15,145 bases of DNA from positions 1-15,145 of the forward strand of contig JAFGKV010000108.1 in NCBI GenBank assembly GCA_016928395.1, in the 5' to 3' direction. Positions 2 through 14,566 of this stretch are shown here, one piece after another. Origin of the DNA: Candidatus Fermentibacterota bacterium (GTDB taxonomy: Bacteria > JAFGKV01). The position numbers and the translations under genes are program-made. Under the pieces are notes generated by a model. That model had not been told where the DNA came from and ran no database searches. It saw only the letters and a list, made by a program, of their open reading frames with translations. Each line of letters starts with the position of its first letter. The first letter of the stretch is position 1.

Positions 2-1333
2 ATGCCGCTTGGCAAATGGGCGGAGGAGGTGCGTGCGTGCGCCGACACCCTGGCACGATTCACCGGCACGCGCCCCCACTGGTTCCGCTATCCCTTCCTA
101 CAGATGGGCGCGACCGCCAGGCTGCGGGATTCGGCAATGGCAATCGTGCACGACAGCGGCCAACGGATCGCCCACGTATCGGTCGATACCGGCGAGTGGG
201 CGCTGGTCAAGCCGTATGTGGATGCATGGCGCGCGGGGGACGCGCGCCTGGCGAGAACGGTCGGAGACGCCTATGTGGAGCACCTATTGAACGCCATCGA
301 CCACTACCGTGCCGTGGCCCAGGCCCGATTCGGGCATGATGTCCCCCAGGTGCTTCTCCTCCACGCCAATGCGCTGGCTGCCGACTACCTGGATGCGCTG
401 CTGACGGCACTGGAAGACCGCGGCGTCACTTTCGTCTCTTTGGCGGATGCACTCTCCGACTCGGTGTATGCGCTGCCTGACGGGTACGTGGGGCCCATCG
501 GCCTGTCGTGGCTGTATCGTGCGGCGCCCTATCTGGAGGGCGCCTGGTCATGGGATGATGCACAGGTGAAAGCCTTTGGCCAACGCTTCGGCGGCCGGAC
601 TGATCCCGACTCCTGTTGGATCGATCAAGACCTTCGCGTCCGCAGGCTCCGCTCTGGCGTGTGGGTTGTCACCCACGAAAGGCCGTGGCCCGCCAACTCG
701 TTGGTGGCCGAGCTGGCCGATTCAACCATCTTGCTCGTCGACACGCCCTACACCCCGGCGGCGACCCGCAGCATGCTCCAGTGGATCTTTGCCCGGTTCG
801 GACGCCGCCCGATGATCGCGGTGAATACCCATTTCCACTACGATGCCCTGGGAGGCAATGAGGCGCTCGGGGAGGCGGGCGTGCCTGTCTATGGTTCCGA
901 CTTCACCGTGCGGCTGCTGGCCGAGCGGGAAGACGCCATGCGGGAGCAGGTCGTGGGCTGGCTCCGCGGTCGGCCCGAAGGAGACTGGTTCGCAGATCTG
1001 AGGCTGGTTGCCCCGGACCATCTCTTCCCCGTGGACGAAGGGCTCGTCCTGGTGCGTGGGGATACGGTGCGGGTGATCTACCCCGGCCCGGCCCATTCAT
1101 CCGACAATGTCGTGGTCTACCTTCCCAGCCAGAGGACCCTGTTCGGTGGATGCATGCTCCTCAGCGGCGACAGAATCGGCAACACCACCGATGCCGATGT
1201 GCCCGCCTGGCCTGCGGCGGTGGAGCGACTGAGGGGGCTACCGGCAGATTTCGTGATACCCGGCCACGGCGATCTCTTCACGCCGGGCCTGCTGGATCAT
1301 ACGGTTCACGTGCTGGCCGCATCTCAAGAATAG
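2..1333 (+). CDS. Polysaccharide deacetylase (NodB-type) C-terminus fused to a subclass B1-like metallo-beta-lactamase domain; 5' partial
   Basis: Reads from the window edge to TAG at 1331-1333. Residues ~1-155 match the second half of a NodB-fold polysaccharide deacetylase: the motif FRYPFLQMG (28-36), VDTGEWALVKPY and the late LLLHAN strand (118-123). The usual early TFDD and HxxxH metal motifs are absent, so the true start almost certainly lies upstream and the ATG at 2 is probably internal. Residues ~205-440 form a metallo-beta-lactamase domain with every B1 zinc ligand: H277-F-H279-Y-D281, H365 (GPAHSSDN), C384 (LFGGC) and H422 (IPGHGD), plus the B1-like DADVPAWP segment. The position matching the B1 substrate-binding Lys three residues after the Cys is Leu387, so classical beta-lactam binding is doubtful. 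It converges on the radical SAM gene ending at 1420. Both domain assignments are firm; substrate and any link to the glycan locus are inferred. Confidence 0.9.
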   Translation: MPLGKWAEEVRACADTLARFTGTRPHWFRYPFLQMGATARLRDSAMAIVHDSGQRIAHVSVDTGEWALVKPYVDAWRAGDARLARTVGDAYVEHLLNAIDHYRAVAQARFGHDVPQVLLLHANALAADYLDALLTALEDRGVTFVSLADALSDSVYALPDGYVGPIGLSWLYRAAPYLEGAWSWDDAQVKAFGQRFGGRTDPDSCWIDQDLRVRRLRSGVWVVTHERPWPANSLVAELADSTILLVDTPYTPAATRSMLQWIFARFGRRPMIAVNTHFHYDALGGNEALGEAGVPVYGSDFTVRLLAEREDAMREQVVGWLRGRPEGDWFADLRLVAPDHLFPVDEGLVLVRGDTVRVIYPGPAHSSDNVVVYLPSQRTLFGGCMLLSGDRIGNTTDADVPAWPAAVERLRGLPADFVIPGHGDLFTPGLLDHTVHVLAASQE

Positions 1334-1419: not shown

Positions 1420-2841
1420 CTACCGGATGGAGTGGCGAAGCCGGGAGAACCCCATGGTGGCGACCGAAAGGGCGCCGTGGAACATGACCTGCACGTCATA
1501 CCACCCGCGGATCCCGGCGATCCTGCGCAGGACGTATGAGGGGCGGGCATAGTAGCGGGCATAGCCCCGTTCCACCAAGTCGACTATCTGTTCCTCAGTC
1601 ATGGTGGGCGCGACAAAGGGCGCCGCCTTGAAGAGCATGCCAAGTCGCTCCTGGGGAGCATTGAGTCGTCCATAGCGGTCAATCTCGTCGTACAGCTTTG
1701 TGCCGGGAAACGGGGTCAGGGGGAAGAACTCCACGTAGAAGTGATTCATGCTGCACGCGAACCGTATGGTCTCCTGCCCCTCTTCATAGGTTTCCCCGGG
1801 GATCCCGAACACATAGGTGCCCATGCTCTCGATGCCCGCCCGGTGGGTGAGGCACACCGCCTCACGGCCCTGCTCTACCGTGGTGCGCTTGTTGAGCGTC
1901 GCCAGGTTCTTCTCCACACCGCTTTCCAGCCCGTAGCTGATGCACCAGCATCCGGCGCGCTTCATCATCCGCAGCAGTTCCTCGTCGACCGTGTCGACCC
2001 GGCCGGTGCACCAGAACACAATCTTCAGATTGCGCCGCAGGATCTCCTCGCAGATTCCCATGGCACGCTCTCGATTCAGCATGAACTGCTCGTCCCAGAA
2101 TTTGATCTCGCGGGCCCCGTGCCTTCGTACATACGACTCGATCTCATCCACCACGTGGCCGGGCGAGCGATACCGCGTCGCGCCGTTGATGGTCTTGAAG
2201 CAGAAAATGCATCGGCTGGCGCAGCCGCGCGAGCTTATCACCTGCATCGCCGGAAGTCGCTTCACCTGGCCATAGGAAGGCCGATACGAATAGTGGGCGA
2301 CGAGGTCATAGGCTGGCATGGGCAGCGCATCGAGGTCAGGAATGGGAGCGCGGGGAGGGTTCTGTACGATGAGGTCGCCGTCCCGCCAGACGCAGCCCTG
2401 CACGCCATCCAGATCGGCCCCTGACGCCACACGTGCGGCAAGTTCTACCACCGTGAGGTCGCCCTCCCCGTATACCACGGCGTCCAGCGCGGGCTCGTCG
2501 AGGCAGCGTGACATGAAGCCGGTGGGGGCCGGACCGCCTGCAACGGTGAATGTCTTCGGATCCAGACGTTTCACCCGACGGAATAGCTCCGTGGCCCGAT
2601 TCCACATGAGCGTGACGCTGTAGACGCCCAGAAGATCAGGCTTCCATGCCTCGATCTCCCCCAGCAGTTGCGCTTCGGTGTGAAAGTGACCATCGAGGAT
2701 CCGCACGTCATGCCCCGCCTGGCGCAAGGCCGCACCTACGGAGAGCACTCCCGGCATGGGCCAGACGCCCGATACGGCCCGTGTCTGGACCGAACGGATA
2801 TCCTCGGTTCTCCAGGAGGGGGAGGTGAGAAGGCATTTCAT
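1420..2841 (-). CDS. B12-binding-domain radical SAM protein (paralogue of the 6584-8008 product)
   Basis: A 473-residue protein. Residues ~1-145 form a Rossmann-like cobalamin-type domain (VLSVGAALRQAGHDVRILD; VAGGPAPTGF; LDAVVYGEGDLT). A linker ending in DLDALPMPAYDLV leads to a radical SAM barrel with the 4Fe-4S motif C207-ASR-C211-IF-C214, then YGLESG (303-308) and FGIPGETYEEG (345-355), and a C-terminal helical tail starting MTEEQIVDLVERGYARYYARP. This is the class B (B12-dependent) architecture, whose members include C-methyltransferases and ring-forming enzymes. The cobalamin motif DxHxxG is only partial (D50-G-H52, no Gly at 55). The ATG at 2841 is supported by an AGGA about 8 nt upstream. 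It is the last gene of the minus-strand run, 170 nt after the GT-C gene. Family is certain; reaction and substrate are unknown. Confidence 0.93.
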   Translation of the reverse strand: MKCLLTSPSWRTEDIRSVQTRAVSGVWPMPGVLSVGAALRQAGHDVRILDGHFHTEAQLLGEIEAWKPDLLGVYSVTLMWNRATELFRRVKRLDPKTFTVAGGPAPTGFMSRCLDEPALDAVVYGEGDLTVVELAARVASGADLDGVQGCVWRDGDLIVQNPPRAPIPDLDALPMPAYDLVAHYSYRPSYGQVKRLPAMQVISSRGCASRCIFCFKTINGATRYRSPGHVVDEIESYVRRHGAREIKFWDEQFMLNRERAMGICEEILRRNLKIVFWCTGRVDTVDEELLRMMKRAGCWCISYGLESGVEKNLATLNKRTTVEQGREAVCLTHRAGIESMGTYVFGIPGETYEEGQETIRFACSMNHFYVEFFPLTPFPGTKLYDEIDRYGRLNAPQERLGMLFKAAPFVAPTMTEEQIVDLVERGYARYYARPSYVLRRIAGIRGWYDVQVMFHGALSVATMGFSRLRHSIR

Positions 2842-3011
2842 GAAGGTTTCCTATCTTTAGGCACGCGCCCGTGACCACGGGGTGGGGTCACCATCCACGA
2901 ATGGCGCGCGTTGTGCGGGGTGCTCCCCACGGGCAGCGGAATGCTGCGGACGGGAAAGAGTGCCGACAGCAGGTGCAAGACCACCGTCGAGGTGAAGACC
3001 GCCGTGGATCA
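2842..3011. other. Gap between the GT-C gene and the last radical SAM gene, with one dyad
   Basis: This 170-nt gap has no convincing gene. It holds a perfect inverted repeat with arms GTGACC (2871-2876) and GGTCAC (2886-2891) and a 9-nt spacer, ending 30 nt upstream of the ATG at 2841. It could be a leader hairpin, an operator or a processing site. There is no T-run, so it is not a standard intrinsic terminator. Because of the gap, the last radical SAM gene may have its own promoter, but no clear -35/-10 pair was recognised. Confidence 0.4.
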
Positions 3012-4811
3012 TCACGGGGAGCCAAAGTCCTTCACTGTTATGTCGCGGGAATGGGGATCGTACCTGAGCAGATACCCGCTCCGGCCCGGGAAGCGTTGCA
3101 GACATGCCCGGTCTGTCTCAGGGCTGATGTGCCGTGCATAGATGATCGGTCTGCGCAAGAACGGATCATTGTGTATGAAGCCAGAGGTGTAATAGTCGGC
3201 GGGCTCCTCCGGGCACTGCATGAACACCACGGCGGGGGTCTTTACCTGCTGTCGCGCGACTTCGTGAACCCTCGGATCAACGCCAAGGCGACGGTCAGTC
3301 AAATCACGAACCCGCATGGGCACGTACAGCACGAACGACACGAGGAACAGCGCTCCGACGGCGGCTAATGCGGCATTCGACCCGGCAACACCGAACCTCC
3401 GGCGGAGGCCGCTGACCCCTCCACGGATGCCCAGAGCCGAGAGGATCACGAGTCCCGGCCAGGAATCAAGGTAGTGTCGCGGCCCATGTTCGACTGCGGA
3501 ATACCAACTGAAGAACAGAATGCTCCCGGTCATCAGCACTGCCAGCGCAAAGGCCCAACTCCATACGGAGCGGCGGCTGCACCAGAATCCCGCCATTGCC
3601 GGTATCAGCGAGATGAGCGGCCACCCGAACAGACCCGTCGAGAGGGTGGCAGACTGCAGCAGGAGGTTCCGGGCTCCTTTCGCGGGGTTGTGACCCATGC
3701 TGCCGTAGCTGGGCCCGTGGGAGGCGGAATCACCAAAGCCCAAAAGCGAATTGGGGTAGATGCATTGCCGTGCCGTGCACAGCGCGTGGCCGGTCACCGC
3801 ATGGTTGTAGAACAACCAAAGGGTGATGAGGGGAACAGCGCCCAGCAGGATCCTCCCCCACCGTGCCCACAGCGGACCCCGGCGTTTCCACGAGCTCAAC
3901 TCCACCACCATGATGGGCACCAGCAGAATCCCCGCCGCCAACGGGCGGACGAGGAAGAGTGCGCCGACGGCGACGCCGACACACCAATCCCACAATCGCC
4001 GATTGCCCCTTCCGTGGGCCTTGGCCACCGCCAGAAACACGAATGATGAAAGGGCCAGAGAGGTTACGTGGTAGCTGTGGCAGGCCGCCAGGAACACGAA
4101 GAAGGGAGAGATGGCACCAATGGCCAGTGCCAAGACCGCCAGGCCCGCGCCATGAAGGTGCGCGGCCAGGAAATAAAGAAGCCAGAGTGAAAGCGCACCA
4201 GTGAGCGGGCCGACCGCCCACGCCAACCCGAATCGGTCGGCGAGCCCCAGAAGTAGTGGATGGCCCGGTTCATAGGGAGTGATCCATCGGCCGTTCCAGA
4301 TGACCATGCCGCGGAGCGCGAACGCATCGACGCACGCCGGCGGGGGTGCGCTCAGCGACCCCGCTGCCAGCGCCCTGCCCTGAAACAAATACTGCGCTTC
4401 GTCCCGGCTTCCGGGAAGCCTTTGCATGGGCCACGCTGCCACCGCAAGGAGTACGCAGAGCCCGAGAAACACCAAAGTCCACGGCCGCAGCCGCCCCGCG
4501 ACTCTGTCCAGCGCCCCCGCGATGTCAAACTTCAGCAGCGCCCCACTCATCAAGGCCAACGCGCCGATGGCTGGCCCCAAGAAGAGAAGCTGCCACAGCT
4601 TGTCCCACCGGCGGCGGGACAGCACGGTGCTCACCTGCCTGCCGGAGACCATTCCGTAGGCTATGACGCCCGCAATCAAGACCGCCACGCTCCCAATCAA
4701 GAGCACCCGATACGCCCGCCGGGAGGATTCCCCGCGCATCGTATCTTGAACAAGAGCGCCAAGGCTCCCGTTGTCGTCGCCCGGGCCTTTCGCGGGAGAG
4801 CCCGAAATCAT
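3012..4811 (-). CDS. GT-C fold membrane glycosyltransferase, GT39/ArnT-like
   Basis: About 599 residues from the ATG at 4811, which lies 4 nt after the stop of the upstream radical SAM gene. An in-frame ATG at 4850 would give 612 residues and a 35-nt overlap; neither start has a clear ribosome binding site. About twelve hydrophobic segments are visible. After the third comes an extracytoplasmic loop with adjacent acidic residues in SRDEAQYLFQGRALAAG (D137-E138), the usual position of the catalytic Asp/Glu in PMT/ArnT-type enzymes that take sugar from a polyprenyl phosphate. A later loop has EHGPRHYLDSWP. The last ~100 residues are soluble and probably periplasmic. The DPM1-like gene at 9019-9771 could supply the lipid-linked donor. 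Fold and topology are well supported; sugar and acceptor are unknown. Confidence 0.82.
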   Translation of the reverse strand: MISGSPAKGPGDDNGSLGALVQDTMRGESSRRAYRVLLIGSVAVLIAGVIAYGMVSGRQVSTVLSRRRWDKLWQLLFLGPAIGALALMSGALLKFDIAGALDRVAGRLRPWTLVFLGLCVLLAVAAWPMQRLPGSRDEAQYLFQGRALAAGSLSAPPPACVDAFALRGMVIWNGRWITPYEPGHPLLLGLADRFGLAWAVGPLTGALSLWLLYFLAAHLHGAGLAVLALAIGAISPFFVFLAACHSYHVTSLALSSFVFLAVAKAHGRGNRRLWDWCVGVAVGALFLVRPLAAGILLVPIMVVELSSWKRRGPLWARWGRILLGAVPLITLWLFYNHAVTGHALCTARQCIYPNSLLGFGDSASHGPSYGSMGHNPAKGARNLLLQSATLSTGLFGWPLISLIPAMAGFWCSRRSVWSWAFALAVLMTGSILFFSWYSAVEHGPRHYLDSWPGLVILSALGIRGGVSGLRRRFGVAGSNAALAAVGALFLVSFVLYVPMRVRDLTDRRLGVDPRVHEVARQQVKTPAVVFMQCPEEPADYYTSGFIHNDPFLRRPIIYARHISPETDRACLQRFPGRSGYLLRYDPHSRDITVKDFGSP

Positions 4812-4815
4812 GGGT

Positions 4816-6321
4816 TCAAGTGGGGGAGGCGCTTCGGCTCGGAATCGCATCCCGACGAAGCAGTGCTCTTAGCGGCCGTCGCACACGCCAGTCGACCGCA
4901 TCGAGTATGACCCGGGTAACGGTCATCTCCCCCTTAGTCTCGTGACGTCGGGTGAGCACATTGGCAATCTGGCGGAGGCTGGCGCCGGGACGGTGGAATG
5001 CTCTCACGGTGAGGAACATCGCATAGATGGCCGTTCGAAATCGGGAAAGGGCTCGGTAGTCCTTCCGCCAGCGGGGACTGAAGCACATTTCCTCCGCTTC
5101 ACACCCCGGAAAAGCCTCCATGGAGGCCGTGCCCGGAAAGGGCGTCATAATGGGGATGATCAGCTCATCCAGGCCTTGGCGGGCCAGGTGAGCGACATAC
5201 CGCCTGGTCATCGCGCGGTCTTCATCCTCCTCGCCGGGATAGCCTAACATGAAACATGCATTGGTGCGAATACCCCTCTTGGATGTCATGGCCACGGTGG
5301 CGCTCACCCGCGAGAGATCCATGCGCTTGCCCATGAGCTCCAGAACCCTGGGTGAGCCGGTCTCGGGAGACACTGAGAGATAACGGAACCCCGCCCGGGC
5401 CATCAGGTCTACCAGTTCCTCATTCAGGGTCATGGCATTGATGCCCGAGGGAAGGCAGAAAGTGAACCCGCGACCCAGCCTGATGACCTCCCGGCATATC
5501 TCTGCGCAGCGCGCTCGGTTCAAGGCAAAGTTCTCATCCTGGATGTGAAAATCGGTGATGCCCCACCGATCGTGATAGAAGACCAACTCCCTCAGAACAT
5601 CATCTGGCGAGCGGGCCAGCCACTTGCCTCCCGACATCAGGGGCGCCTGGCAAAAGCCGCAGTGGAACGGGCAGCCGCGGGAGGTGATCACGTTCATGTA
5701 CGGCCCGCGCACCGGGCCGTGGCCGTAGGGCAGCTTCCAGTAGTTCTCCAGCGGGAGCAGCTCCGCGGCGGGGAGAGGAAAGCCGTCCAGTGTCCCCAGA
5801 AGCTTCGTGCGCGGGCGGATCACTTCCCCTGTGGCCAACCCCTCGACTTCTTCCAGGGAGCCACGGCCTTCCAGTGCATCGAGAAGCGCGGGAAGCCGGT
5901 GTTCGCCTTCGCCCAACACGACAAAGTCAGCGCCCAAGGCAACGAACTGCTCCGGCACAAACGTCGGGTGGTACCCGCCCACGATAAGGGGCATACCGGG
6001 GAATGCATCCCGCAGTTCGGACAGTAGTGCCCGCGCTATCGCCTGCTCGGTGGTACAGTGGACGCTCAACCCGATGGCATCGATCTCCCCTGTGACCGAC
6101 CTGACGATCTCTGACGGCGTCAGACCCCGGGCCACATACTGACGTGCAAACGAATAAAGCCTCCGGGGGGCACTGCCATAGGCGTCCAGCACCGCCACGG
6201 GATGCCCCGCGGCCTGTACCACCGCGGCAAGATGGGCAATCCCGATGGGAATGCCGGGGATGGAGCCGTAGAAATCGCCTCGGTGATGAATCACGGGAGG
6301 GCGGATCAGGAGCAGCTTCAT
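4816..6321 (-). CDS. B12-binding-domain radical SAM protein
   Basis: A 501-residue protein from the ATG at 6321; the frame stays open to an ATG at 6354. The 6321 start is chosen because the family N-terminus begins there (MKLLLIRPP) and because it forms a 4-nt ATGA overlap with the small ORF before it. The N-terminal cobalamin-type domain shows IPIGIAHLAAVVQAAGHPVAVLD, IVGGYHPTFVPEQ and FVVLGEGE. The linker GTLDGFPLPAAELL is followed by C217-PFH-C221-GF-C224, the 4Fe-4S/SAM site. Barrel signatures are SVSPETGS and ACFMLGYPGEEDED, followed by MTPFPGT. No DxHxxG cobalamin-ligand motif is present (it has LDAYGSA there). It is not a close paralogue of the 1420-2841 and 6584-8008 pair. Class B radical SAM enzyme of unknown reaction; the locus suggests glycan or lipid modification. 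Confidence 0.92.
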   Translation of the reverse strand: MKLLLIRPPVIHHRGDFYGSIPGIPIGIAHLAAVVQAAGHPVAVLDAYGSAPRRLYSFARQYVARGLTPSEIVRSVTGEIDAIGLSVHCTTEQAIARALLSELRDAFPGMPLIVGGYHPTFVPEQFVALGADFVVLGEGEHRLPALLDALEGRGSLEEVEGLATGEVIRPRTKLLGTLDGFPLPAAELLPLENYWKLPYGHGPVRGPYMNVITSRGCPFHCGFCQAPLMSGGKWLARSPDDVLRELVFYHDRWGITDFHIQDENFALNRARCAEICREVIRLGRGFTFCLPSGINAMTLNEELVDLMARAGFRYLSVSPETGSPRVLELMGKRMDLSRVSATVAMTSKRGIRTNACFMLGYPGEEDEDRAMTRRYVAHLARQGLDELIIPIMTPFPGTASMEAFPGCEAEEMCFSPRWRKDYRALSRFRTAIYAMFLTVRAFHRPGASLRQIANVLTRRHETKGEMTVTRVILDAVDWRVRRPLRALLRRDAIPSRSASPT

Positions 6322-6569
6322 TTCGGCGTGCAGGATAGCGTGGAGAGCCGCCACCTGTCGACGGACAGGCTATCGAAGAGCGTGGTACGCAGAGCGCACC
6401 CATCCCGGAAGCGGACTATCCGACGTGGGACACACGGGAGGCGGTCAGAGCACGTGTCACAGCCGCGCTCCACGGGGTTGACGATCTGCTCCAGCGTCAC
6501 TTCTTCCTCCCCGAAGACCACCACGTCCAGCGGGGGATCATCGAAACCGGCGGCGCGGCGAGACGACAC
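6318..6569 (-). CDS. Small 83-residue ORF in the operon, cysteine-containing, resembling a fragment of a B12-binding domain
   Basis: It starts at GTG 6569, 14 nt after the stop of the radical SAM gene at 6584, and its TGA (6318-6320) overlaps the ATG of the next gene in an ATGA junction, an arrangement typical of translated operon genes. Codons end mostly in C or G, as in the neighbours. Residues 12-25 (PPLDVVVFGEEEVT) match a core strand of the B12 domains encoded on both sides (ELDIVVYGDGEIT; ALDAVVYGEGDLT), but no SAM motif follows. It has five Cys, including C37-x2-C40-x5-C46 and C58. It may be a decayed or captured radical SAM fragment, or a small accessory or substrate protein. No obvious Shine-Dalgarno. 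Not recognised as a named family. Confidence 0.5.
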   Translation of the reverse strand: MSSRRAAGFDDPPLDVVVFGEEEVTLEQIVNPVERGCDTCSDRLPCVPRRIVRFRDGCALRTTLFDSLSVDRWRLSTLSCTPK

Positions 6570-6583
6570 TTCATCGAAGACTT

Positions 6584-8008
6584 CTAGCTTGCGGTCAGGA
6601 GAAGAAAAAAGCCCTTGATGTTCTTCTTCAGGTCATGGATGTTGCGCATCTTGCGGATCCGCTGCCCTACCAGACGCGGCCGCAGGTAGAAGCGCTTATG
6701 TCCCTGCTTGATGAGACTGATGATCTGCTCTTCGGTCATCCCCTCGGGCACAAACGACACGTTCTTCAGATCGTACGGGGCTTCGTGCTTCACGGCGCGA
6801 ATCCTGCCGGACTGCACGTCTTCATAGACCGCCGAACCCGGGAACGGGGTGAGCGACACGAACACCGCGAAGTCCAACCCGATGGAACAGGCGAACTCGA
6901 TGGTCTGCAAGCCCTCCTCATAGGTCTCGCCAGGGATGCCGAACATGAATGTGCCGTATGCCTCGATGCCGGCCTTGTTCGTCATGCGCACGGCATCGGC
7001 GATCTGCGTGAGGGTAAGTTCCTTCCGCAAGGTGTCGATGTTCTTCTGCACGCCCGATTCTATGCCGTAGAGCACCCGCCAGCATCCGGCCCGCTTCATG
7101 TGCCGCAGCAGCGGCAGGTCTACCTTGTCGGCCCGGGCATTCACGCACCAATCAACCTTCAGTCTGCGCCGAAGCATCTCGTCACAGACCTCGCTGGCCC
7201 GGCGCTCGGACAGCGTAAATGTGTCGTCCCAAAACGCAACATCCACCACACCGTGATCGCGATGCAGCATCTCAATCTCATCCACAATATTGCGCGCGCT
7301 GCGCATCCTCGTGAACGGATCTGTGTGGCAGAAGGTGCAGTGATACGGACACCCACGGGATCCGATTATGGACTCGTGGGGCAGCCGGTGGTAGAAGGTC
7401 GGCGAGGGAAGGTACTTGGAAAGGTCAACCACCGAACGATCGGGAAACGGCAACGTGTCCAAGTCTTTCACCGGGGGGCGCGGCGGGTTGACCGCCACCT
7501 CCCCGTCATTCCGGTAGATGATCCCCTGAACTCCCTCCAGCGGTGCCCGATCCTGGAGCCGGCGCATGAGCTCCCGTGCGGTGATCTCGCCGTCACCGTA
7601 GACGACGATGTCCAATTCGGGACACTCCTCGAAGCACTGCTCTTTCCACAGGGTCGGGTGAATGCCCCCCGCCACAAGAGTCAACTCGGGGAAGGCGCCG
7701 CGCAGAGACCGGGCCAAATGCTTCATGTTGCGCCAGTCGACGCTGGTGACCGTCATCCCGACCACGTCCGGTTGTATCCGCCTGACCGTCTCCAGCACGA
7801 TCTCCGGGGTGCTGAAGAGCCCTTCCAGATAATGCACCTCATGCCCGTCGCCCTTCAGATGGGGCACGAGGTACAGCAGGGAAGGCGAGGGAACGACATT
7901 GACCAGAGGTCGTATCTTGAGCCAGCCGAAGCCTTTCCTCCGGATGTTCATGAAGCGGTGCTGATCCTGCTCCCACGGGGCAGGCACGGTCATGAGCAGG
8001 ACACGCAT
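6584..8008 (-). CDS. B12-binding-domain radical SAM protein (paralogue of the 1420-2841 product)
   Basis: A 474-residue protein. The N-terminal cobalamin-type domain (~1-155) contains VAGGIHPTLWKEQ and LDIVVYGDGEIT. DLDTLPFPD links to a radical SAM barrel with C220-PYH-C224-TF-C227, MKRAGCWRVLYGIESGV and FMFGIPGETYEEG. The helical tail begins MTEEQIISLIKQGHKRFYLRP. The same blocks recur in the product of 1420-2841 (MKRAGCW, YG-ESGV, FGIPGETYEEG, MTEEQI), so the two arose by duplication. The DxHxxG motif is absent (YLEGLFST at that place), so any cobalamin would bind without the usual histidine ligand. An AGAGG lies 9 nt before the ATG, inside the end of the upstream glycosyltransferase gene, whose stop is only 3 nt away. 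Class B radical SAM enzyme; substrate unknown. Confidence 0.93.
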   Translation of the reverse strand: MRVLLMTVPAPWEQDQHRFMNIRRKGFGWLKIRPLVNVVPSPSLLYLVPHLKGDGHEVHYLEGLFSTPEIVLETVRRIQPDVVGMTVTSVDWRNMKHLARSLRGAFPELTLVAGGIHPTLWKEQCFEECPELDIVVYGDGEITARELMRRLQDRAPLEGVQGIIYRNDGEVAVNPPRPPVKDLDTLPFPDRSVVDLSKYLPSPTFYHRLPHESIIGSRGCPYHCTFCHTDPFTRMRSARNIVDEIEMLHRDHGVVDVAFWDDTFTLSERRASEVCDEMLRRRLKVDWCVNARADKVDLPLLRHMKRAGCWRVLYGIESGVQKNIDTLRKELTLTQIADAVRMTNKAGIEAYGTFMFGIPGETYEEGLQTIEFACSIGLDFAVFVSLTPFPGSAVYEDVQSGRIRAVKHEAPYDLKNVSFVPEGMTEEQIISLIKQGHKRFYLRPRLVGQRIRKMRNIHDLKKNIKGFFLLLTAS

Positions 8009-8011
8009 CGA

Positions 8012-9022
8012 TCAGTACCTCTTGCCAAAGAGAAACGAGACTGCGCCCGAGACGATGCCCGCATCGATGGCGGCGACATCAGCCACGAGAAGCGCGGCGA
8101 TCGCGCCGGCTTGGAGGGCGCCGCGGCGACGGGAAATGAAGAACAAGAACGGAAGCTGGAAGAGAATCACGCACGCACCCAGCGCGACCGCAAGAGGCAC
8201 TGCCCCCGCCCAGGCCGCCGCGATCCCCAAGGGAAGACAGGCGAGACTCCCCAGCCAGGCCCTCATCTCGCCGGCGCGGGCTGTGCTCACGGCCCAACCA
8301 CCACCGGGATGCAATACCGCTACATCCCTGGCCAAAGCCCGGCGCAGCATGAACCGCGTCTTTGCCGCAGCCAGACGGAAATCATAGCGCAGCAGTTCAC
8401 CTGCTCCATAGTGCCGGTCGTGAATCACCCGAAGCCGCGAGTCAAGGAGAATGCGGCCTCCTCTCCGCACGACGCGATGCCCCAGGTCTGCGTCTTCCAC
8501 CGTCGGCACGGTGATCCTCTCATCGAAACCACCCAGTTCACGAAACAGCGACGCTCTGATGGCGAAGAAGAACGACGCGGCCGACACCAGCCAGGGGTTC
8601 TTGATCCGTCGCGTCCATGAGTAGTGGTAGTAGAGGTTCTTGTACTGGCTGGATGCATTTGGATGCGGGCATTCCGCGGCATAGATCCCCTGCACCGCAT
8701 CGGGGCAGTCTGGCGCCTGAAAGTGGTGGAGGAGGAGGGTGAACGCATCGGGCGGAACCATGACATCGGCATCCACGAACACTACGATCTCTCCGCCAGC
8801 CTCGCGGGCGCCCAGATTCCTGGCCCTGGACGCGCCCACTGACCTCGGCAGGGTAATGACCCGCGTGGCGTCGCGTTCCGCAAGGGACGCCGTCGCATCG
8901 CAGGATCCATCATTGACCACAAGGATCTCTAGTGACATCCCCCCCGCGCGGCGGAGAGCAGCCAGGCACGAGGGAAGGGTGGGCGCAGCATCCCGCGCCG
9001 GCACCACTGCGGACACCGTCAT
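8012..9022 (-). CDS. Family 2 glycosyltransferase with C-terminal membrane segments
   Basis: A 336-residue protein. The GT-A domain opens with VSAVVPARDAAPTLPSCL, followed by ILVVNDGS (nucleotide binding), FVDADV (82-87, the metal-binding DxD) and TVPTVEDADLGHR (~171-183), where the acidic pair probably includes the catalytic base. Residues ~255-335 contain two to three hydrophobic helices, so it is probably anchored with its catalytic face in the cytoplasm, using a nucleotide sugar. The ATG overlaps the stop of the upstream gene as ATGA, suggesting translational coupling. It is a paralogue of the 9776-10816 product: both share FVDADV, a YYHYS block and the C-terminal helices. Donor and acceptor cannot be read from sequence. 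Confidence 0.9.
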   Translation of the reverse strand: MTVSAVVPARDAAPTLPSCLAALRRAGGMSLEILVVNDGSCDATASLAERDATRVITLPRSVGASRARNLGAREAGGEIVVFVDADVMVPPDAFTLLLHHFQAPDCPDAVQGIYAAECPHPNASSQYKNLYYHYSWTRRIKNPWLVSAASFFFAIRASLFRELGGFDERITVPTVEDADLGHRVVRRGGRILLDSRLRVIHDRHYGAGELLRYDFRLAAAKTRFMLRRALARDVAVLHPGGGWAVSTARAGEMRAWLGSLACLPLGIAAAWAGAVPLAVALGACVILFQLPFLFFISRRRGALQAGAIAALLVADVAAIDAGIVSGAVSFLFGKRY

Positions 9023-9771
9023 GAGAAGCGGGGAAGCGTCGGGTCGCGACGGATACCCAGGCGGTGTAGGAAAAAGCGCGCCATGTGGCCCAGAAGGCTG
9101 AGCCCGTAGCGGATTCCCTGGCGAAAGCTCATCTTGGAGCTGTCATCGGCGAAGCGTGTCGGGCTGGGGATTTCGTCGATCCGGTGGCCGCGGGCAGCCA
9201 GATGCACCATGATCTGAGTGTCGAAATCGAATCGGTCGGAGAAGGTGTGAAAGGGAACCGCCTCCAGCCCTCGCCTCGAATATGCGCGGTAGCCGTTGTG
9301 AAACTCGGAAAGCCGCGTGCCGAACACGAGGTTGCCCAAAAACGTCAGGGTTCGGTTCGGAATGTACTTCCAGATGGGCATACCCCCCTTCAGGGCATCA
9401 CCGCTCTTGATGCGTGACCCGGTCACGCCATCGGCCCCCGCTGCCACGGCTTCGACGAATCTGGGTAGGATGGCGGGGCTGTACTGAAAATCCGAGTGGA
9501 GCAAGACCACGATGTCGGCCGCATGCTCCAGAGCCCAGGCGTATCCCGTCTTCTGTGCTCCGCCGTATCCTCTGTTTTTCGGATGGTTCACCACCGCAAG
9601 GCCCAGAGAGCGGGCGACTTCATCGGTGCCGTCGCGGCTACCGTCATTCACCAGGACGATTTCGTCCACCCATCCTTCGGGGATGGCCGCCACGGTCTTC
9701 GCCAGAGTGCGGGCGGTGTTGTAGGCGGGCATGACCACTACGACCCTGCGACCCGAAGCGTGCGCGCTCAC
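9019..9771 (-). CDS. Family 2 glycosyltransferase of the DPM1/polyprenol-phosphate-sugar synthase type
   Basis: A 250-residue protein from GTG 9771. An ATG at 9798 would overlap the previous gene by 23 nt; the GTG is preferred because an AGGAGG lies 10 nt before it, inside the last codons of the upstream gene, and it starts 4 nt after that stop. Visible blocks are VVVVMPAYNTARTL, IVLVNDGSRDGT, NRGYGGAQKTGYAWAL, LLHSDFQYSPAIL (DxD region, here H-S-D), SEFHNGYRAYSR and a PSPTRFADDSSKMSFRQG end. No membrane segment is obvious, as in short DPM1-type enzymes, which move a sugar from a nucleotide donor to a polyprenyl phosphate. It is a logical donor source for the GT-C protein at 3012-4811. Its downstream end overlaps the next gene by 4 nt. 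Confidence 0.9.
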   Translation of the reverse strand: MSAHASGRRVVVVMPAYNTARTLAKTVAAIPEGWVDEIVLVNDGSRDGTDEVARSLGLAVVNHPKNRGYGGAQKTGYAWALEHAADIVVLLHSDFQYSPAILPRFVEAVAAGADGVTGSRIKSGDALKGGMPIWKYIPNRTLTFLGNLVFGTRLSEFHNGYRAYSRRGLEAVPFHTFSDRFDFDTQIMVHLAARGHRIDEIPSPTRFADDSSKMSFRQGIRYGLSLLGHMARFFLHRLGIRRDPTLPRFS

Positions 9772-9775
9772 TGTG

Positions 9776-10816
9776 TCAAAACCTCCTACCCACAGCATAC
9801 TCCAGGGCGCCTACCATGAGCCCAGCCCCCACAGCCAGCATGTCGAACCACAGCATTCCAAGAGAGACCATGGCGGCCACCCAGCCGTGGGTGACTCTGA
9901 CATGCGTGAGGAACCCGCCGCCGAGACAGGCCAAAACTACCCAGGCCCCGAGAAAGACCGCCAGAAGTCTCCAGCCCGGCATCACCAGCAGTGCGCCCAG
10001 CAGAAGGGCAATCCCCCACGACACGGGAATTGCCAGCACAATCCTGCGGGAATGGTGTGTCAAGTTGCTGCCCACATTGGCATAGCGACGAAGAAGCCGG
10101 AGGCGAACATGCCGCAAGGCGCTCTTCATCTGGCTGCGCCCCATCCGGAATCGGCGGATGAGAAAACGACCGAGCGTGTAGTCAGCCAAGTGATCCACCA
10201 GAAGCGTTCGGTCAAGCAGTATCTGATAGCCTTTGTCCACCAACGTATACCCAAACTCCTCATCCTCCACGGTGGCCCCCGGTATCCGCTCGTCGAATCC
10301 GCCTGCCCGCAAGAATACGTCCCGGCGCACTGCGGCGCACCACGTCGCAAACACACTGGTATGGTCTCCCGGCACGCGGCGCAGGGAATAGTGGTAGTAG
10401 TCGTTCTGATAACGGCTCCACGGGTTGGCCACGGGGCCCGGGCATCGGTAGAGGCTCTGCACCGCCGCCACGTCCGGATGTCGGGAGAAATCCTCCCGGA
10501 CCCGGTGCAGCGTATCCGAAGCGATCACCACATCGGCATCCACGAAGACGATGATGGCCCCCCGAGCCGCCCGCGCCCCCGCATTGCGGGCGGCGGCGGC
10601 GCCTCGCCGGGAGGTCAGCCGCACCAGACGGTGACACAGATCGCCGGCGATGCGGGCAGAGTCGTCGGCAGACTTGTCGTCAACTACGATAAGCTCGGCG
10701 TCATCCAGGCCTGACCCGCACACCGCCTCAAGGCATCGGCGAAGAGTCCCCGCGGCATCATGCGCGGGGACCACAATGGAGAGGTCCGGAAGGGACCGGC
10801 TCGATTCGGCGGCCAT
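9776..10816 (-). CDS. Family 2 glycosyltransferase with C-terminal membrane segments (first gene of the minus-strand run)
   Basis: A 346-residue protein. The GT-A domain has LSIVVPAHDAAGTLRRCL, LIVVDDKSADDS, the AARNAGARAARG helix, FVDADVV (DxD at 93-95) and GATVEDEEFGY (E184-D185, candidate catalytic base region). Three hydrophobic stretches lie between ~258 and 340. It resembles the 8012-9022 product, including RYQNDYYHYSLRR against QYKNLYYHYSWTR, so the two are duplicates that probably act on related acceptors. The ATG has a weak AGGG about 9 nt upstream. It is the first gene after the divergent intergenic region, so the promoter at 10925-10953 would serve the run. Confidence 0.9.
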   Translation of the reverse strand: MAAESSRSLPDLSIVVPAHDAAGTLRRCLEAVCGSGLDDAELIVVDDKSADDSARIAGDLCHRLVRLTSRRGAAAARNAGARAARGAIIVFVDADVVIASDTLHRVREDFSRHPDVAAVQSLYRCPGPVANPWSRYQNDYYHYSLRRVPGDHTSVFATWCAAVRRDVFLRAGGFDERIPGATVEDEEFGYTLVDKGYQILLDRTLLVDHLADYTLGRFLIRRFRMGRSQMKSALRHVRLRLLRRYANVGSNLTHHSRRIVLAIPVSWGIALLLGALLVMPGWRLLAVFLGAWVVLACLGGGFLTHVRVTHGWVAAMVSLGMLWFDMLAVGAGLMVGALEYAVGRRF

Positions 10817-10894
10817 TGTAACAACCCTGAAGGCTCCCCCATGCCGCGCCCACTGGCAGGCTCTCGGCCGGAGAACCGGAGAGAATGGAACAAA

Positions 10895-10913
10895 GTTCCC
10901 GGGTCATGGGAAC
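10895..10913. promoter_or_regulatory. Perfect dyad GTTCCC-N7-GGGAAC, possible operator
   Basis: The arms GTTCCC (10895-10900) and GGGAAC (10908-10913) flank a 7-nt spacer. The dyad would lie just inside the start of the minus-strand transcript, a common place for a repressor site. No regulator gene is in the window. Confidence 0.4.
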
Positions 10914-10924
10914 GGGAATCTTCC

Positions 10925-10953
10925 AATGTCACCGTTGGGAGTCTGGGTGTCAA
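10925..10953 (-). promoter_or_regulatory. Candidate sigma70 promoter for the minus-strand operon
   Basis: Read on the minus strand, a perfect -35 box TTGACA (10953-10948) is followed by a 17-nt spacer and a weak -10 box GACATT (10930-10925, 3 of 6 matches). Transcription would start near 10918, giving a leader of about 100 nt before the ATG at 10816. The poor -10 box may mean an activator is needed or that the site is spurious. Confidence 0.4.
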
Positions 10954-11032
10954 TGTGGACTCTGGTCGACCTCGCCCTCAGGGAACGGGCGCGCGGGCCT
11001 GCACCTTTGAGGACCGTGCACCACCTTCCTGC

Positions 11033-11060
11033 TTGACATCTCGCCCGGACATCGTACCAT
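11033..11060 (+). promoter_or_regulatory. Sigma70 promoter for the plus-strand radical SAM gene
   Basis: A perfect -35 box TTGACA (11033-11038), a 16-nt spacer and the -10 box TACCAT (11055-11060, 4 of 6 matches). Transcription would start near 11067, leaving a leader of about 135 nt before the GTG at 11203. This is the best promoter in the window. Confidence 0.6.
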
Positions 11061-11094
11061 CGAGTCTTCATCCCCTGTGTGTCGCGAATCCGCA

Positions 11095-11148
11095 GTCACG
11101 TCCCACGGCCTTGAGGGCGTGACAGTGGGCCGGCACGGTGGTGCCGGC
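11095..11148 (+). promoter_or_regulatory. Two-hairpin leader structure with a competing pairing
   Basis: Hairpin 1 pairs GTCACG (11095-11100) with CGTGAC (11118-11123) and, after one bulged T, CCC (11102-11104) with GGG (11115-11117). Hairpin 2 has perfect 8-bp arms GCCGGCAC (11129-11136) and GTGCCGGC (11141-11148) around a GGTG loop. CCCAC (11102-11106) could instead pair with GTGGG (11125-11129), which would break hairpin 1 and the base of hairpin 2. No U-run follows, so this is not an obvious transcriptional terminator. A regulatory role is inferred. Confidence 0.4.
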
Positions 11149-11202
11149 GGTCTCCATGGATACGACCGGCCCCGCCGGAATCAGAGAAGGCAGGTAGCCT
11201 GC

Positions 11203-12840
11203 GTGCATACACCCTCCATCGCGGTGATCACTCCCATCGAAGACGGCATACCCGTCCAGGTGTCCGCCTACAAAGCGTGGATGCCCCGATACGGCAGCGT
11301 TTCGGTGGCCCAGGCCCTCAAGGATGCGGGCTATGAGGTCCGCCATTACTGCGAGCACTCAGGAAGCGTCATCGATTGGGAGTGGGTCTTCTCCTGCGAC
11401 TATGTCGGCCTGTCGCTCATGACGTTCTGCGCCCGCAAAGGCGCCCAGTACGCCCGGCGGATCCGCGAGCACTCCAAGGCCCGCATCATTGCCGGGGGCT
11501 GCCATGCCTCGGTCGCGCCGGAGGACTGTCTGGATTTCGCCGACATCGCCGTCCGCAACGAAGGCGAGGCCGCGCTGCTGGAGGTGCTGGATGCCCTGGG
11601 CCACGGGGGTGATCTCTCGGGTGTGCAGGGTATCAGCTATCGCGACGGGTTCGGCCAGATACGGCACAATCCTGATCACGCCTTCATTGCGGATCTGAGT
11701 AGAGTCGTCGACATCTCTCTCATCGATGGCTACCCCAGGAATGACCCACGCCGGTTCCTCAAAGAGGCGTTCAGGCGGCGCCAGATTCCCCGGATCAGCC
11801 TACCCGTAGCGCAGACATCCCGGGGCTGCGTGCACCGCTGCCGTTTCTGCATGGTCAAGTTCGAGCTGGGATCAACCTACCGCCGCCGTCCTCCGGAGGT
11901 GGTGGTGCAGGAGATCGAAAAAGCCTTCGATCATCTTAGATCGCGCACCATCTTCTTGGTGGACAATGACTTCACCCACGACACCGACCATGCGCTGGCG
12001 GTGCTTACGCCACTGGTCGAGAAGTACGGCGGGAGATTTAACATCTACTTCTTCAGCCGTATCGATCTCGCGAAGAAGCCGCGGCTGCTGGAGGTCTTGC
12101 GCACCATCGACAATGTCTATATCGGCGTCGGGTTCGAATCAACCAATGATTCGACCTTGTCGGAGTTCTCCAAGGGGCAGCGCCACGGCGACTTCATCGA
12201 GAGCGTCGACACGCTTCACCGGTACGGATTCAATATCCACGGCCTCTTCATCTTCGGCGCGGATACCGATACGGTCCGGAGTCTGGAGGAGACTGTGGGA
12301 TTCGCTCTGCAAAACAAGCTCTACACGGTGGGGTTCAGCGCCCTCTACGATATCCCGGGCAAAGAGAAGACCCTGGGCCTCCCCCAGCTCATTCCTGACC
12401 ATCGCTTCATTCATCGGGACTGGCGACTCTTCACGAGCCACTTCGTCGTGCACTACCCAAGACAGATGCGGCCCAGCCAGCTCCAGCGCGCCATCATCGA
12501 CGGCCAGAAGCGCTTCTTCCGCGAGAACCGGGCGACCTTCTTCCAGTACTTTCCGGTGTACGCCAGCTCCGAGCCTTATATTCGCTACCTCGAACAGGCG
12601 GAGCGGGATCTGTACGACACCCAGGATCGCCTCATTGAGGAACGGCTCATGGGGAGAACCTACGAGGATCTTCCCGACCTCGTGCCGCTGCGGGCCAGTC
12701 GGTGGGTGAAAAGCCGGGAAACCGGGGAGTTCATCCTGCAGAACGCCTTCCGCGCCAAGGCATGGCAGATGCTGTCATCCAACTTCGGCCGTCGGGGGAC
12801 CGGGGCCAAACCCCTCATCCTCGGCAGCCTCCAGACGTAG
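11203..12840 (+). CDS. B12-binding-domain radical SAM protein with a long C-terminal extension
   Basis: A 545-residue protein from GTG 11203. The frame stays open upstream to 11077, but that part has no family-like sequence, while AVITPIEDGIPVQVSAYKAW is a natural N-terminus; an AGG lies 8 nt before the GTG. The N-terminal cobalamin-type domain includes VSVAQALKDAGYEV, IIAGGCHASVAPEDC and IAVRNEGEAALLEVLD. The radical SAM site is C209-VHR-C213-RF-C216 after AQTSRG. Later signatures are FLVDNDFT, IGVGFES and GLFIFGADTDT. The last ~130 residues (from about HRDWRLFTSHFVVHYP) are aromatic- and basic-rich and longer than in the other copies. There is no DxHxxG motif. It is transcribed away from the glycosyltransferase operon from its own promoter. 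Reaction unknown. Confidence 0.92.
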   Translation: MHTPSIAVITPIEDGIPVQVSAYKAWMPRYGSVSVAQALKDAGYEVRHYCEHSGSVIDWEWVFSCDYVGLSLMTFCARKGAQYARRIREHSKARIIAGGCHASVAPEDCLDFADIAVRNEGEAALLEVLDALGHGGDLSGVQGISYRDGFGQIRHNPDHAFIADLSRVVDISLIDGYPRNDPRRFLKEAFRRRQIPRISLPVAQTSRGCVHRCRFCMVKFELGSTYRRRPPEVVVQEIEKAFDHLRSRTIFLVDNDFTHDTDHALAVLTPLVEKYGGRFNIYFFSRIDLAKKPRLLEVLRTIDNVYIGVGFESTNDSTLSEFSKGQRHGDFIESVDTLHRYGFNIHGLFIFGADTDTVRSLEETVGFALQNKLYTVGFSALYDIPGKEKTLGLPQLIPDHRFIHRDWRLFTSHFVVHYPRQMRPSQLQRAIIDGQKRFFRENRATFFQYFPVYASSEPYIRYLEQAERDLYDTQDRLIEERLMGRTYEDLPDLVPLRASRWVKSRETGEFILQNAFRAKAWQMLSSNFGRRGTGAKPLILGSLQT

Positions 12841-12942
12841 CATCTCATCCTCGGGGCGCCTCACATTGTGAATGAGGGCTTCCATGGCGTGTATCGTGAA
12901 GGCGGCAAGACTCAAGGAGTCAGAACCCAGAGTGGCCCCTGA

Positions 12943-12985
12943 ATGGGCGCCGAGTGCCGGGCGCCGCTTCCCGCAAGGCGCCCAT
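12943..12985. repeat. Inverted repeat with perfect 9-bp arms
   Basis: ATGGGCGCC (12943-12951) and GGCGCCCAT (12977-12985) flank a 25-nt loop that holds an inner CGGG/CCCG stem (12958-12961 with 12970-12973). It forms a stable cruciform or RNA hairpin on either strand. With no T-run it is at most a non-canonical terminator; it could also be a REP-like extragenic palindrome. Confidence 0.5.
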
Positions 12986-13053
12986 ATCCGAGATCGCTGG
13001 CGGGAATCGGATACGACAGTCTCGCTCCCTCTCCACCAAGCCCCCAGTGACGG

Positions 13054-13071
13054 TCGCCCCTTCGGGGGCGA
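13054..13071. terminator. TTCG-loop hairpin, possible bidirectional terminator
   Basis: The arms TCGCCCC (13054-13060) and GGGGCGA (13065-13071) close a TTCG loop, the very stable C(UUCG)G type in plus-strand RNA. Lying between convergent genes, it is the best terminator candidate here, but it lacks a U-run, so termination is inferred from place and stability only. Confidence 0.4.
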
Positions 13072-13150
13072 ACAGCCATCCGCCCGAATGCTCATTCCCC
13101 ACAAATCCGACAGTCTTCGGCCCGCAAGAAGCCTGCCCACGCTACGGGGG

Positions 13151-14566
13151 TCAGGATTCCACTGAACTACTGAGCCTTCCCTTATCACGCATACGCCGGA
13201 ACCACAGCCAGGCGGCGTTGCTCCAATCGATTCTCAGCCGGGGCATTCCCATAAGGATCTTGGGCGCCTTGGCGGCATAGAAGCGGCGGTAGGCCCGGCG
13301 TTGGAGACGCCGCAGCTCCTCCCCGGAGACGGCGCTCAGGTTGAAGTAGCCGGAGAGGTAGTTGTACTTCCCGAAGTCCAGCGTCGCCGACTCTTCCGGC
13401 CCCACCGTTTCGTCCCACAGCGGCGTTCCAGGGTAGGGTGTGACGATGAAGAAGCTGGCGAAGAACAGATCCGTGGCAACGGCATAGGAGATCGTCGCCT
13501 CCATCTCCTCGGCCGTCTCCGTGGGAAACCCAAGCATGAAGTAGCCGTTGGTCACAATGCCGTCGGCATCGGCCCAGGTGATCGCCTCGCGAACGCGCTC
13601 AATGTCCAAGTGCTTGTGGATGAGCTTCTGAAGGCGCGATGATGCGGTCTCAACCGCCACGGCAAGGTTCGTGGTGCCTGCATCGGCCATCAGACTGACC
13701 AGCTCCCGATCCAGCCTGTCGGCACGGACTCCATTGGGAAATGCGAGCTGGAAGCTCCCGTCCATCCGGCAGAGCCCTTCGCAGATGGCCTTCGCCCTGG
13801 GCAGGTCAAGGTTGAAGATATCGTCATATACCTCGATATCGCGAATGCCGAAGCGCCCCACGATCTCTCGCGCCTCCTCCACCACGTTCTCTGCGGATCT
13901 CGGGCGGAACTGCTTCCCGAAGAGGTTGTGGCAGTAAAAACACTGGTAGGGACACCCTCGCGAGGTGAACAGGGGAAGGAACCGGCCACGCTTGAGATTG
14001 CCGGCTCGCCCCCGGCGTGCATAGAGATTGATGTCTACCAGATCCCATGCGGGGAAGGGAAGCGCATCCACATCGGAGACGGCTTGGCGCGGCGGACCCC
14101 AGGCAACCTGCCCATCGGTGCGCCACCCAACCCCCGGGATTTCCGGCCGGTCTCCTCCACCCTCCACCGCGCGGACGACTGCGGCAAAGCTCTCCTCGCC
14201 TTCACCCGTCACCAAGACATCGATGTTCCCATCGGCGATGACATCGGCAGTGCATGCGGAAATGTGAGGGCCACCGACAACAACGGCCGTACGTCGATCT
14301 GATGCCTTGGTCTCCGCGGCAACCCGATGCATGCTGGCTGCTTCGCATGTCAAGGCGGAAACCGCCACCATATCGGCCGGAGAGGAGGAGAGTCGCTGCT
14401 TCAGGAGCGTGAACGGCTCGGGATGGCACCGAAGGTCAAGGAGCTCTATCTCGTGGCTCTTCTCCAAGGACCGGAGGTAGGAAGCCAAGTACATCAGCCC
14501 CAGCGGGTACGATATCTGCGGGACTTCTCTGTTGAAGGAAGAACACTTGACCATGAGGATGCGCAT
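13151..14566 (-). CDS. B12-binding-domain radical SAM protein
   Basis: A 471-residue protein. The ATG at 14566 has a strong GGAG 7 nt upstream. The N-terminal cobalamin-type domain shows PLGLMYLASYLRSL, VVVGGPHISACTADVI and IDVLVTGEGEESF. DVDALPFPAWDLVD leads to the 4Fe-4S/SAM motif C205-PYQ-C209-FY-C212 after TSRG. Barrel signatures include IEVYDDIFNLD, VAVETASS and NGYFMLGFPTETAEEM, and the TPYPGTPLWDE block precedes a basic C-terminal tail (LQRRAYRRFYAAKAP). The cobalamin DxHxxG motif is absent (DLRCHPE). It closes the set of five enzymes of this class. It is convergent with the 11203-12840 gene and probably has its own promoter (14597-14624), so it may be controlled apart from the operon. 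Confidence 0.93.
   Translation of the reverse strand: MRILMVKCSSFNREVPQISYPLGLMYLASYLRSLEKSHEIELLDLRCHPEPFTLLKQRLSSSPADMVAVSALTCEAASMHRVAAETKASDRRTAVVVGGPHISACTADVIADGNIDVLVTGEGEESFAAVVRAVEGGGDRPEIPGVGWRTDGQVAWGPPRQAVSDVDALPFPAWDLVDINLYARRGRAGNLKRGRFLPLFTSRGCPYQCFYCHNLFGKQFRPRSAENVVEEAREIVGRFGIRDIEVYDDIFNLDLPRAKAICEGLCRMDGSFQLAFPNGVRADRLDRELVSLMADAGTTNLAVAVETASSRLQKLIHKHLDIERVREAITWADADGIVTNGYFMLGFPTETAEEMEATISYAVATDLFFASFFIVTPYPGTPLWDETVGPEESATLDFGKYNYLSGYFNLSAVSGEELRRLQRRAYRRFYAAKAPKILMGMPRLRIDWSNAAWLWFRRMRDKGRLSSSVES

Follow-up and report, generated by a model that had tools for sequence, protein, structure and literature searches.

A modular locus of glycosyltransferases and cobalamin-type radical SAM enzymes, a possible pathway for a radical-modified envelope glycoconjugate

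What does a bacterium make with five cobalamin-type radical S-adenosylmethionine (SAM) enzymes and four glycosyltransferases (GTs) encoded within a single locus? The question is raised by contig JAFGKV010000108.1 of assembly GCA_016928395.1, deposited as a Candidatus Fermentibacterota bacterium and given the GTDB lineage JAFGKV01. The entire contig of 15,145 bases (G000:C140), from a draft genome of 4.79 Mb in 343 contigs, was analysed and is called the window below. On balance, the locus appears to encode a modular pathway for an envelope glycoconjugate, either a lipid-linked glycan or a glycolipid, whose carbon skeleton is modified by the cobalamin (B12) radical SAM enzymes. The chances are about even that it represents an undescribed class of envelope glycoconjugate in Fermentibacterota and the window's lineage, with a fixed polyprenyl-phosphate-sugar core and one to six swappable B12 radical SAM modules acting on the sugar or lipid skeleton.

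An earlier note on this DNA, made from the sequence alone, had described five complete B12-type radical SAM genes interleaved with three GTs of family 2 (GT2) and one of the GT-C type, mostly in one co-directional run. The genes are present as described. The radical SAM proteins, here named A to E, are encoded at 1420-2841 (A, minus strand), 4816-6321 (B, minus), 6584-8008 (C, minus), 11203-12840 (D, plus) and 13151-14566 (E, minus). From A to E, the B12-binding domain PF02310 scores 72.6, 68.6, 68.8, 41.3 and 66.6 bits and the Radical_SAM domain PF04055 scores 64.4, 83.1, 66.9, 65.8 and 69.6 bits; these ranges of 41-73 and 64-83 bits are all above the Pfam cut-offs, and each protein has one CX3CX2C motif. 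The four GTs are all encoded on the minus strand: GT-C (3012-4850), GT2a (8012-9022), GT2b (9019-9798) and GT2c (9776-10816). PF00535 is found in the three GT2s at 86-110 bits, with 89.7 bits in GT2a and 110 bits in GT2c. The gene ends overlap or abut between GT2c and GT2b (-23 bases), GT2b and GT2a (-4), GT2a and C (3) and B and GT-C (-35), which gives an operon-like arrangement. The co-directional run is thus real from GT2c to C and for B and GT-C, but it includes neither D, on the opposite strand, nor E, which is separated from the others. A scan for promoters and terminators gave promoters no more numerous than in shuffled sequence.

Comparison with other genomes shows which of these genes belong together. 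The comparison comprised 42 genomes of Fermentibacterota, with loci annotated by tblastn, and three genomes representing the window's phylum; G000 is the window's own genome, G001 a sister genome of the same genus and G002 a genome of the same family. A core built up by A, GT2a, GT-C, GT2b and GT2c is complete in 18 Fermentibacterota loci, in all of which GT2c lies on the strand opposite to the remaining core genes, and homologues of A (E <= 1e-100) are found in 29 of the 42 genomes. C is encoded in 17 of these genomes, at full length in 15 and as a broken or partial gene in the other two, and B, at 49-54% identity, follows directly after C in all 17 loci. Full-length orthologues of C at 59-62% identity occur solely in Fermentibacterota (Fermentibacteria, Fermentibacteraceae, Aegiribacteria, Sabulitectum), the next matches being at 36% or less. 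A B-like gene is also frequent in Fermentibacterota genomes without C, and in two loci (L164, L168) it adjoins another radical SAM enzyme that has no B12 domain. Three loci (L162, L166, L169) hold the core alone with no additions. C and B, in this order, form an optional cassette, and A is the only one of the five enzymes that belongs to the conserved core. Core A in Fermentibacterota often adjoins a ClpB-like gene. In one further locus (L178, G177:C8) the whole core and the C-B pair are present with many apparent frameshifts, probably sequencing errors.

The window holds the same seven genes, core and C-B cassette, in a different order from that in Fermentibacterota. A, B and C form clades with their Fermentibacterota counterparts (support 100/99, 100/100 and 100/100), and GT2a, GT2b and GT2c each group with their own counterpart (SH-aLRT 96, 96 and 94%). 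Because each tree pairs a gene with its own counterparts, the members of the shared gene set appear to be orthologous one by one. Mis-binning of the contig is unlikely, since the second draft genome of the genus, G001, carries A, B and C at 80-87% identity to those of the window (87% for C, on contig JALOPK010000054.1). No close C was found in G002.

D and E behave differently from these seven genes. They are convergent neighbours in the window, in G001 (C283) and in G151. D has a relative of 69% identity in a single Fermentibacterota genome, where it and E converge just like the pair in the window, and E has relatives of 62-66% identity in four Fermentibacterota genomes, where they lie beside a GT-C paralogue and away from the core locus (L154-L157). 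D-E is therefore a separate, convergent accessory module, located near the core in the window's genus but not in Fermentibacterota. A single five-enzyme system was rejected, as D-E and the gene at the 5' end of the window are separate in the genome comparison. The earlier note had proposed one pathway that radically modifies a glycan, glycolipid or lipid-linked metabolite and had tied it to conservation of the neighbourhood. Seven of the nine genes are conserved together, and the linkage of GTs to radical SAM enzymes is borne out by the 18 loci and by a genome-wide association described below, but the five enzymes do not form a single unit.

In the sister genome, the contigs tile as GT2c, GT2b, GT2a, C, A2 and B, then GT-C and D, continue with the end of D, E, a transposase, GT-C' and A3, and end with the rest of A3, GT-C'', a GT2, an amine oxidase, A and a deacetylase-lactamase gene. 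The join C397-C437 is backed by an exact end overlap of 45 bases, and the joins C437-C283-C22 rest on complementary gene pieces. The transposase, between E and GT-C, is of the IS4 family (L153 2414-3607, G001:C283). A2 is a second A-type gene between C and B. At the same place in the window, a gap of 262 bases (6322-6583) retains both ends of the A2 gene at about 80% DNA identity to the sister locus, with collinear in-frame matches to residues 107-143 and 353-412 of the G001 A2 (tblastn 6e-5 and 4e-7). Judged from these matches, the gap is the deletion remnant of a sixth radical SAM gene, of which an open reading frame of 83 amino acids (6318-6583, minus strand) would be what internal deletions have left. 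The A2 of G001 is probably defective too, because its radical SAM barrel is shortened by about 61 residues, among them the GIPGE segment. This gene decay fits a system that gains and loses add-ons.

The glycosyltransferases point to the cell envelope. The best solved relative of GT2b is the dolichol-P-mannose (DPM) synthase 5mlz, followed by ArnC-type enzymes, and the GtrB-like PHROG scores 107 bits; GT2b is predicted to be a polyprenyl-phosphate sugar synthase of the DPM/GtrB type. In known cases, DPM/ArnC/GtrB-type enzymes make polyprenyl-phosphate sugars. GT2a and GT2c each have three C-terminal transmembrane-like segments and are probably membrane-anchored. GT-C has nine such segments and an Asp-Glu pair (D150-E151) that is invariant in 11 relatives, a topology and motif as expected of integral membrane enzymes that use polyprenyl-phosphate sugars. 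Its PMT_2 score is near the cut-off of 26.1 bits, being 21.7 as protein and 26.2 in the genome scan, and a search of known structures with its sequence gave no match. Relatives of GT-C in other phyla (E <= 1e-40) mostly stand alone among unrelated genes and give no guide to function, and its orthologue is part of the Fermentibacterota core. The type of GT2b, the topology and Asp-Glu pair of GT-C and the anchoring of GT2a and GT2c together suggest that the product is an envelope glycan or glycolipid.

None of the radical SAM enzymes A-E reaches the cut-off of any curated NCBIfam family, in line with the earlier note, which did not recognise a described system. All five have an N-terminal Rossmann B12-binding domain and a radical SAM barrel, as in class 1 cobalamin-dependent radical SAM enzymes, and would be expected to bind B12. 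Their cluster motifs (CASRCIFC, CPFHCGFC, CPYHCTFC, CVHRCRFC and CPYQCFYC) have the form CX3CX-phi-C. AlphaFold2 models of A (pLDDT 89.4) and B (pLDDT 88.4) have AprD4 as best match in PDB, for A with Z 34.3 and 3.0 A over 413 residues, followed by MgmA (30.4), CysS (30.2), OxsB (28.3) and TsrM (27.7), and for B with Z 29.8, followed by MgmA (26.9), OxsB (26.2) and TsrM (26.1). The matches to OxsB and TsrM, and to CysS too, are full-length and indicate the class 1 fold. The substrate of AprD4 is paromamine, an aminosugar compound (PMC5461906), and an aminosugar substrate in the nearest solved fold of both A and B supports an action on sugar. Membership of the AprD4 family itself was rejected by the curated cut-off (NF033070; at most 92 bits for A-E versus 500), and the similarity is one of fold only. 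Among the matches are a dehydratase, methyltransferases and an enzyme that contracts a ring, a spread compatible with more than one type of reaction. An invariant Trp (Trp80 in A) is found shortly after strand 3 in the clade of A and C and is absent from BchE, HpnJ and HpnR. In solved class 1 enzymes, the lower-face residue in the loop after strand 3 is Asn, Arg or Trp. The residue below the cobalt sits in this loop and is a Trp in TokK and probably in CysS (PMC13331322). In A the Trp aligns with CysS Trp75 and in C it is two residues off TokK Trp76; as the pairwise alignments disagree on register, it is not counted here as a sign of methylation.

Taken as a pathway, the genes could act in the following order. 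GT2b would put a sugar on polyprenyl phosphate at the cytoplasmic side, and the anchored GT2a and GT2c would extend a membrane-bound acceptor with sugars. The soluble A would then modify the glycan at the cytoplasmic surface of the membrane, where SAM, reductant and B12 are available; A is present in every copy of the core. After flipping, GT-C would transfer the polyprenyl-phosphate-linked sugar to an acceptor outside. Optional steps, carried out by the C-B pair, by the B-like enzyme with its plain radical SAM partner or by D-E with a GT-C of its own, would vary the product by species. The part remodelled by the B12 radical enzymes would be the sugar, with the lipid as a less likely target, and the reaction would be C-methylation, deoxygenation or ring rearrangement.

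The main rival places the radical chemistry on the lipid. The target of the radical SAM enzymes would be the lipid anchor (polyprenol, fatty or ether chains), with the GTs merely adding a head group, by analogy with HpnR, the glycerol dialkyl glycerol tetraether (GDGT) ring synthases and the proposed ladderane enzymes. This is unlikely. Known B12 radical SAM enzymes act on porphyrins and peptides as well as on lipids, and many of them are lipid enzymes (PMC13142503). Among NCBIfam models, A and C score highest with BchE (TIGR02026; 201 and 211 bits versus a cut-off of 481.35) and HpnJ (TIGR03471; 181 and 179 bits versus 577.6), and A scores 112 bits with the rSAM_ladder lipid model. However, all these scores are far below the cut-offs, as is the best score with HpnR (TIGR04367; 103 bits versus 650), and the tree places A and C apart from BchE, HpnJ and HpnR, so that membership of these three families was rejected. 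Nor was squalene-hopene cyclase (PF13249) found in the 18 genomes searched, and no lipid-synthesis gene was recognised in the window or conserved beside the core.

An origin in secondary metabolism is improbable. Natural-product clusters do combine radical SAM enzymes and GTs for tailoring of diffusible compounds, which could here be aminoglycoside-like, as the AprD4 fold might suggest, or resemble ribosomally synthesised and post-translationally modified peptides (RiPPs), whose ApyD model scores 128-162 bits against A, B, C and E, far under its cut-off of 750. In contrast to a sporadic cluster, A is found in about two thirds of a phylum. Of the four GTs, three are embedded in or anchored to the membrane and the other belongs to the polyprenyl-phosphate type, and no precursor peptide, nonribosomal peptide synthetase, polyketide synthase or export gene was recognised.

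It is equally hard to credit that unrelated radical SAM and GT genes have accumulated by chance or through mobile elements. The genome is rich in both, with 32 B12-binding matches (28 over the cut-off) and 41 GT2s; D-E and the deacetylase-lactamase gene lie outside the core, and the locus has an IS4 transposase and gene decay. However, only 0.09 B12-binding genes are expected per 15 kb, and five in any such stretch genome-wide have P ~1e-5, so the density remarked on in the earlier note is far beyond chance. The shared neighbourhood in another phylum, where the same orthologues are found together with conserved orientation, contradicts accretion for A, B and C and for all four GTs. Beyond the window, 8 of the 25 large B12 proteins of the genome have a GT2 within 3 kb (3.8% expected, P 3e-6), and because this proximity also exceeds expectation, the organism may make glycoconjugates decorated by radical SAM enzymes as a general trait. 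It also has two smaller clusters, L057 (G000:C16) and L054 (G000:C201), with two B12 radical SAM and two GT2 genes each. In an unrelated genome (G044), four B12 radical SAM matches fall into a stretch of 13 kb (L047), and at another place in it (L208) a distant relative of GT-C has radical SAM genes nearby.

A hopanoid or bacteriochlorophyll branch, which the earlier note had already doubted, has a negligible probability, because the scores of A and C with BchE and HpnJ, their best models, are under half of the curated cut-offs, the clades are separate and the 18 genomes lack squalene-hopene cyclase, which rules out the hopanoid pathway.

Some observations weigh against the envelope pathway itself. 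The window has no sugar-nucleotide or flippase genes (no GtrA-like flippase was seen in it, and the genome was not searched for one). The likeness of the modelled folds to AprD4 would not fix the substrate, as the methyltransferases MgmA and CysS score nearly as high, and the genome-wide P value assumes that the loci are independent. In the tree, the window's A belongs to the A clade but lies outside the core A of Fermentibacterota, and a gene that does fall inside the core-A clade stands alone elsewhere in the window's genome (L051 9570-11024, G000:C199). This lone radical SAM gene lies upstream of hrcA-grpE-dnaK-dnaJ, a chaperone link also seen in the ClpB-like neighbour of core A.

The gene at the 5' end of the window (2-1333, plus strand, 5'-truncated) encodes a polysaccharide deacetylase fused to a metallo-beta-lactamase domain and is a neighbour only, outside the conserved core. 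In each of the two genomes of the genus, it and A are transcribed towards each other; a full-length relative lies at L040 7289-8986. The lactamase domain is subclass-B1-like (163 bits versus a cut-off of 200) and retains HXHXD (as HFHYD), GPAH, GGC and PGHGD.

Most members of the large B12 radical SAM group have no known substrate. With a gene set common to two uncultured phyla, the choice of substrate is reduced to a lipid-linked glycan or its lipid, and the fixed GT core with its swappable radical SAM modules gives named genes for direct testing. If true, the envelope glycoconjugate pathway would imply that these bacteria have new envelope chemistry, which might also supply biomarkers. No description of such a locus was found in the literature, with subscription papers mostly outside the search.

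Several known systems resemble parts of the locus. As in the polyprenyl-phosphate-sugar systems GtrB/GtrC and ArnC/ArnT, a DPM-like GT2, here GT2b, would supply the donor for a GT-C. The locus differs in having two additional GT2s as well as B12 radical SAM enzymes, from one to several in number, and no GtrA-type flippase was identified in the window. The observed gene order hpnI-hpnJ-hpnK also places a GT2 beside a B12 radical SAM gene, and HpnJ of the bacteriohopane cyclitol ether pathway remodels the attached sugar. Unlike there, hopanoid synthesis is absent here, and A and C are in a separate clade far under the HpnJ cut-off. Among solved structures, AprD4 (6fd2), the radical SAM diol dehydratase of apramycin synthesis, is nearest in fold to A and B, matching them across about 400 residues. 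It acts on an aminosugar pseudodisaccharide (PMC5461906), but its own cluster motif aligns as CX3CX3C and its B12 domain does not match A in sequence. On an Azospirillum plasmid (L188), a TIGR04295 B12 radical SAM gene lies beside four glycosyltransferases, and on a Lawsonia plasmid (L189) and Solidesulfovibrio pDMC1 (L190) B12 radical SAM genes lie among GT2 or GT4 and sugar genes. These plasmid loci differ from the window in families and gene sets, but their presence in named bacteria shows that the association of B12 radical SAM enzymes with glycosyltransferases is wider than two phyla.

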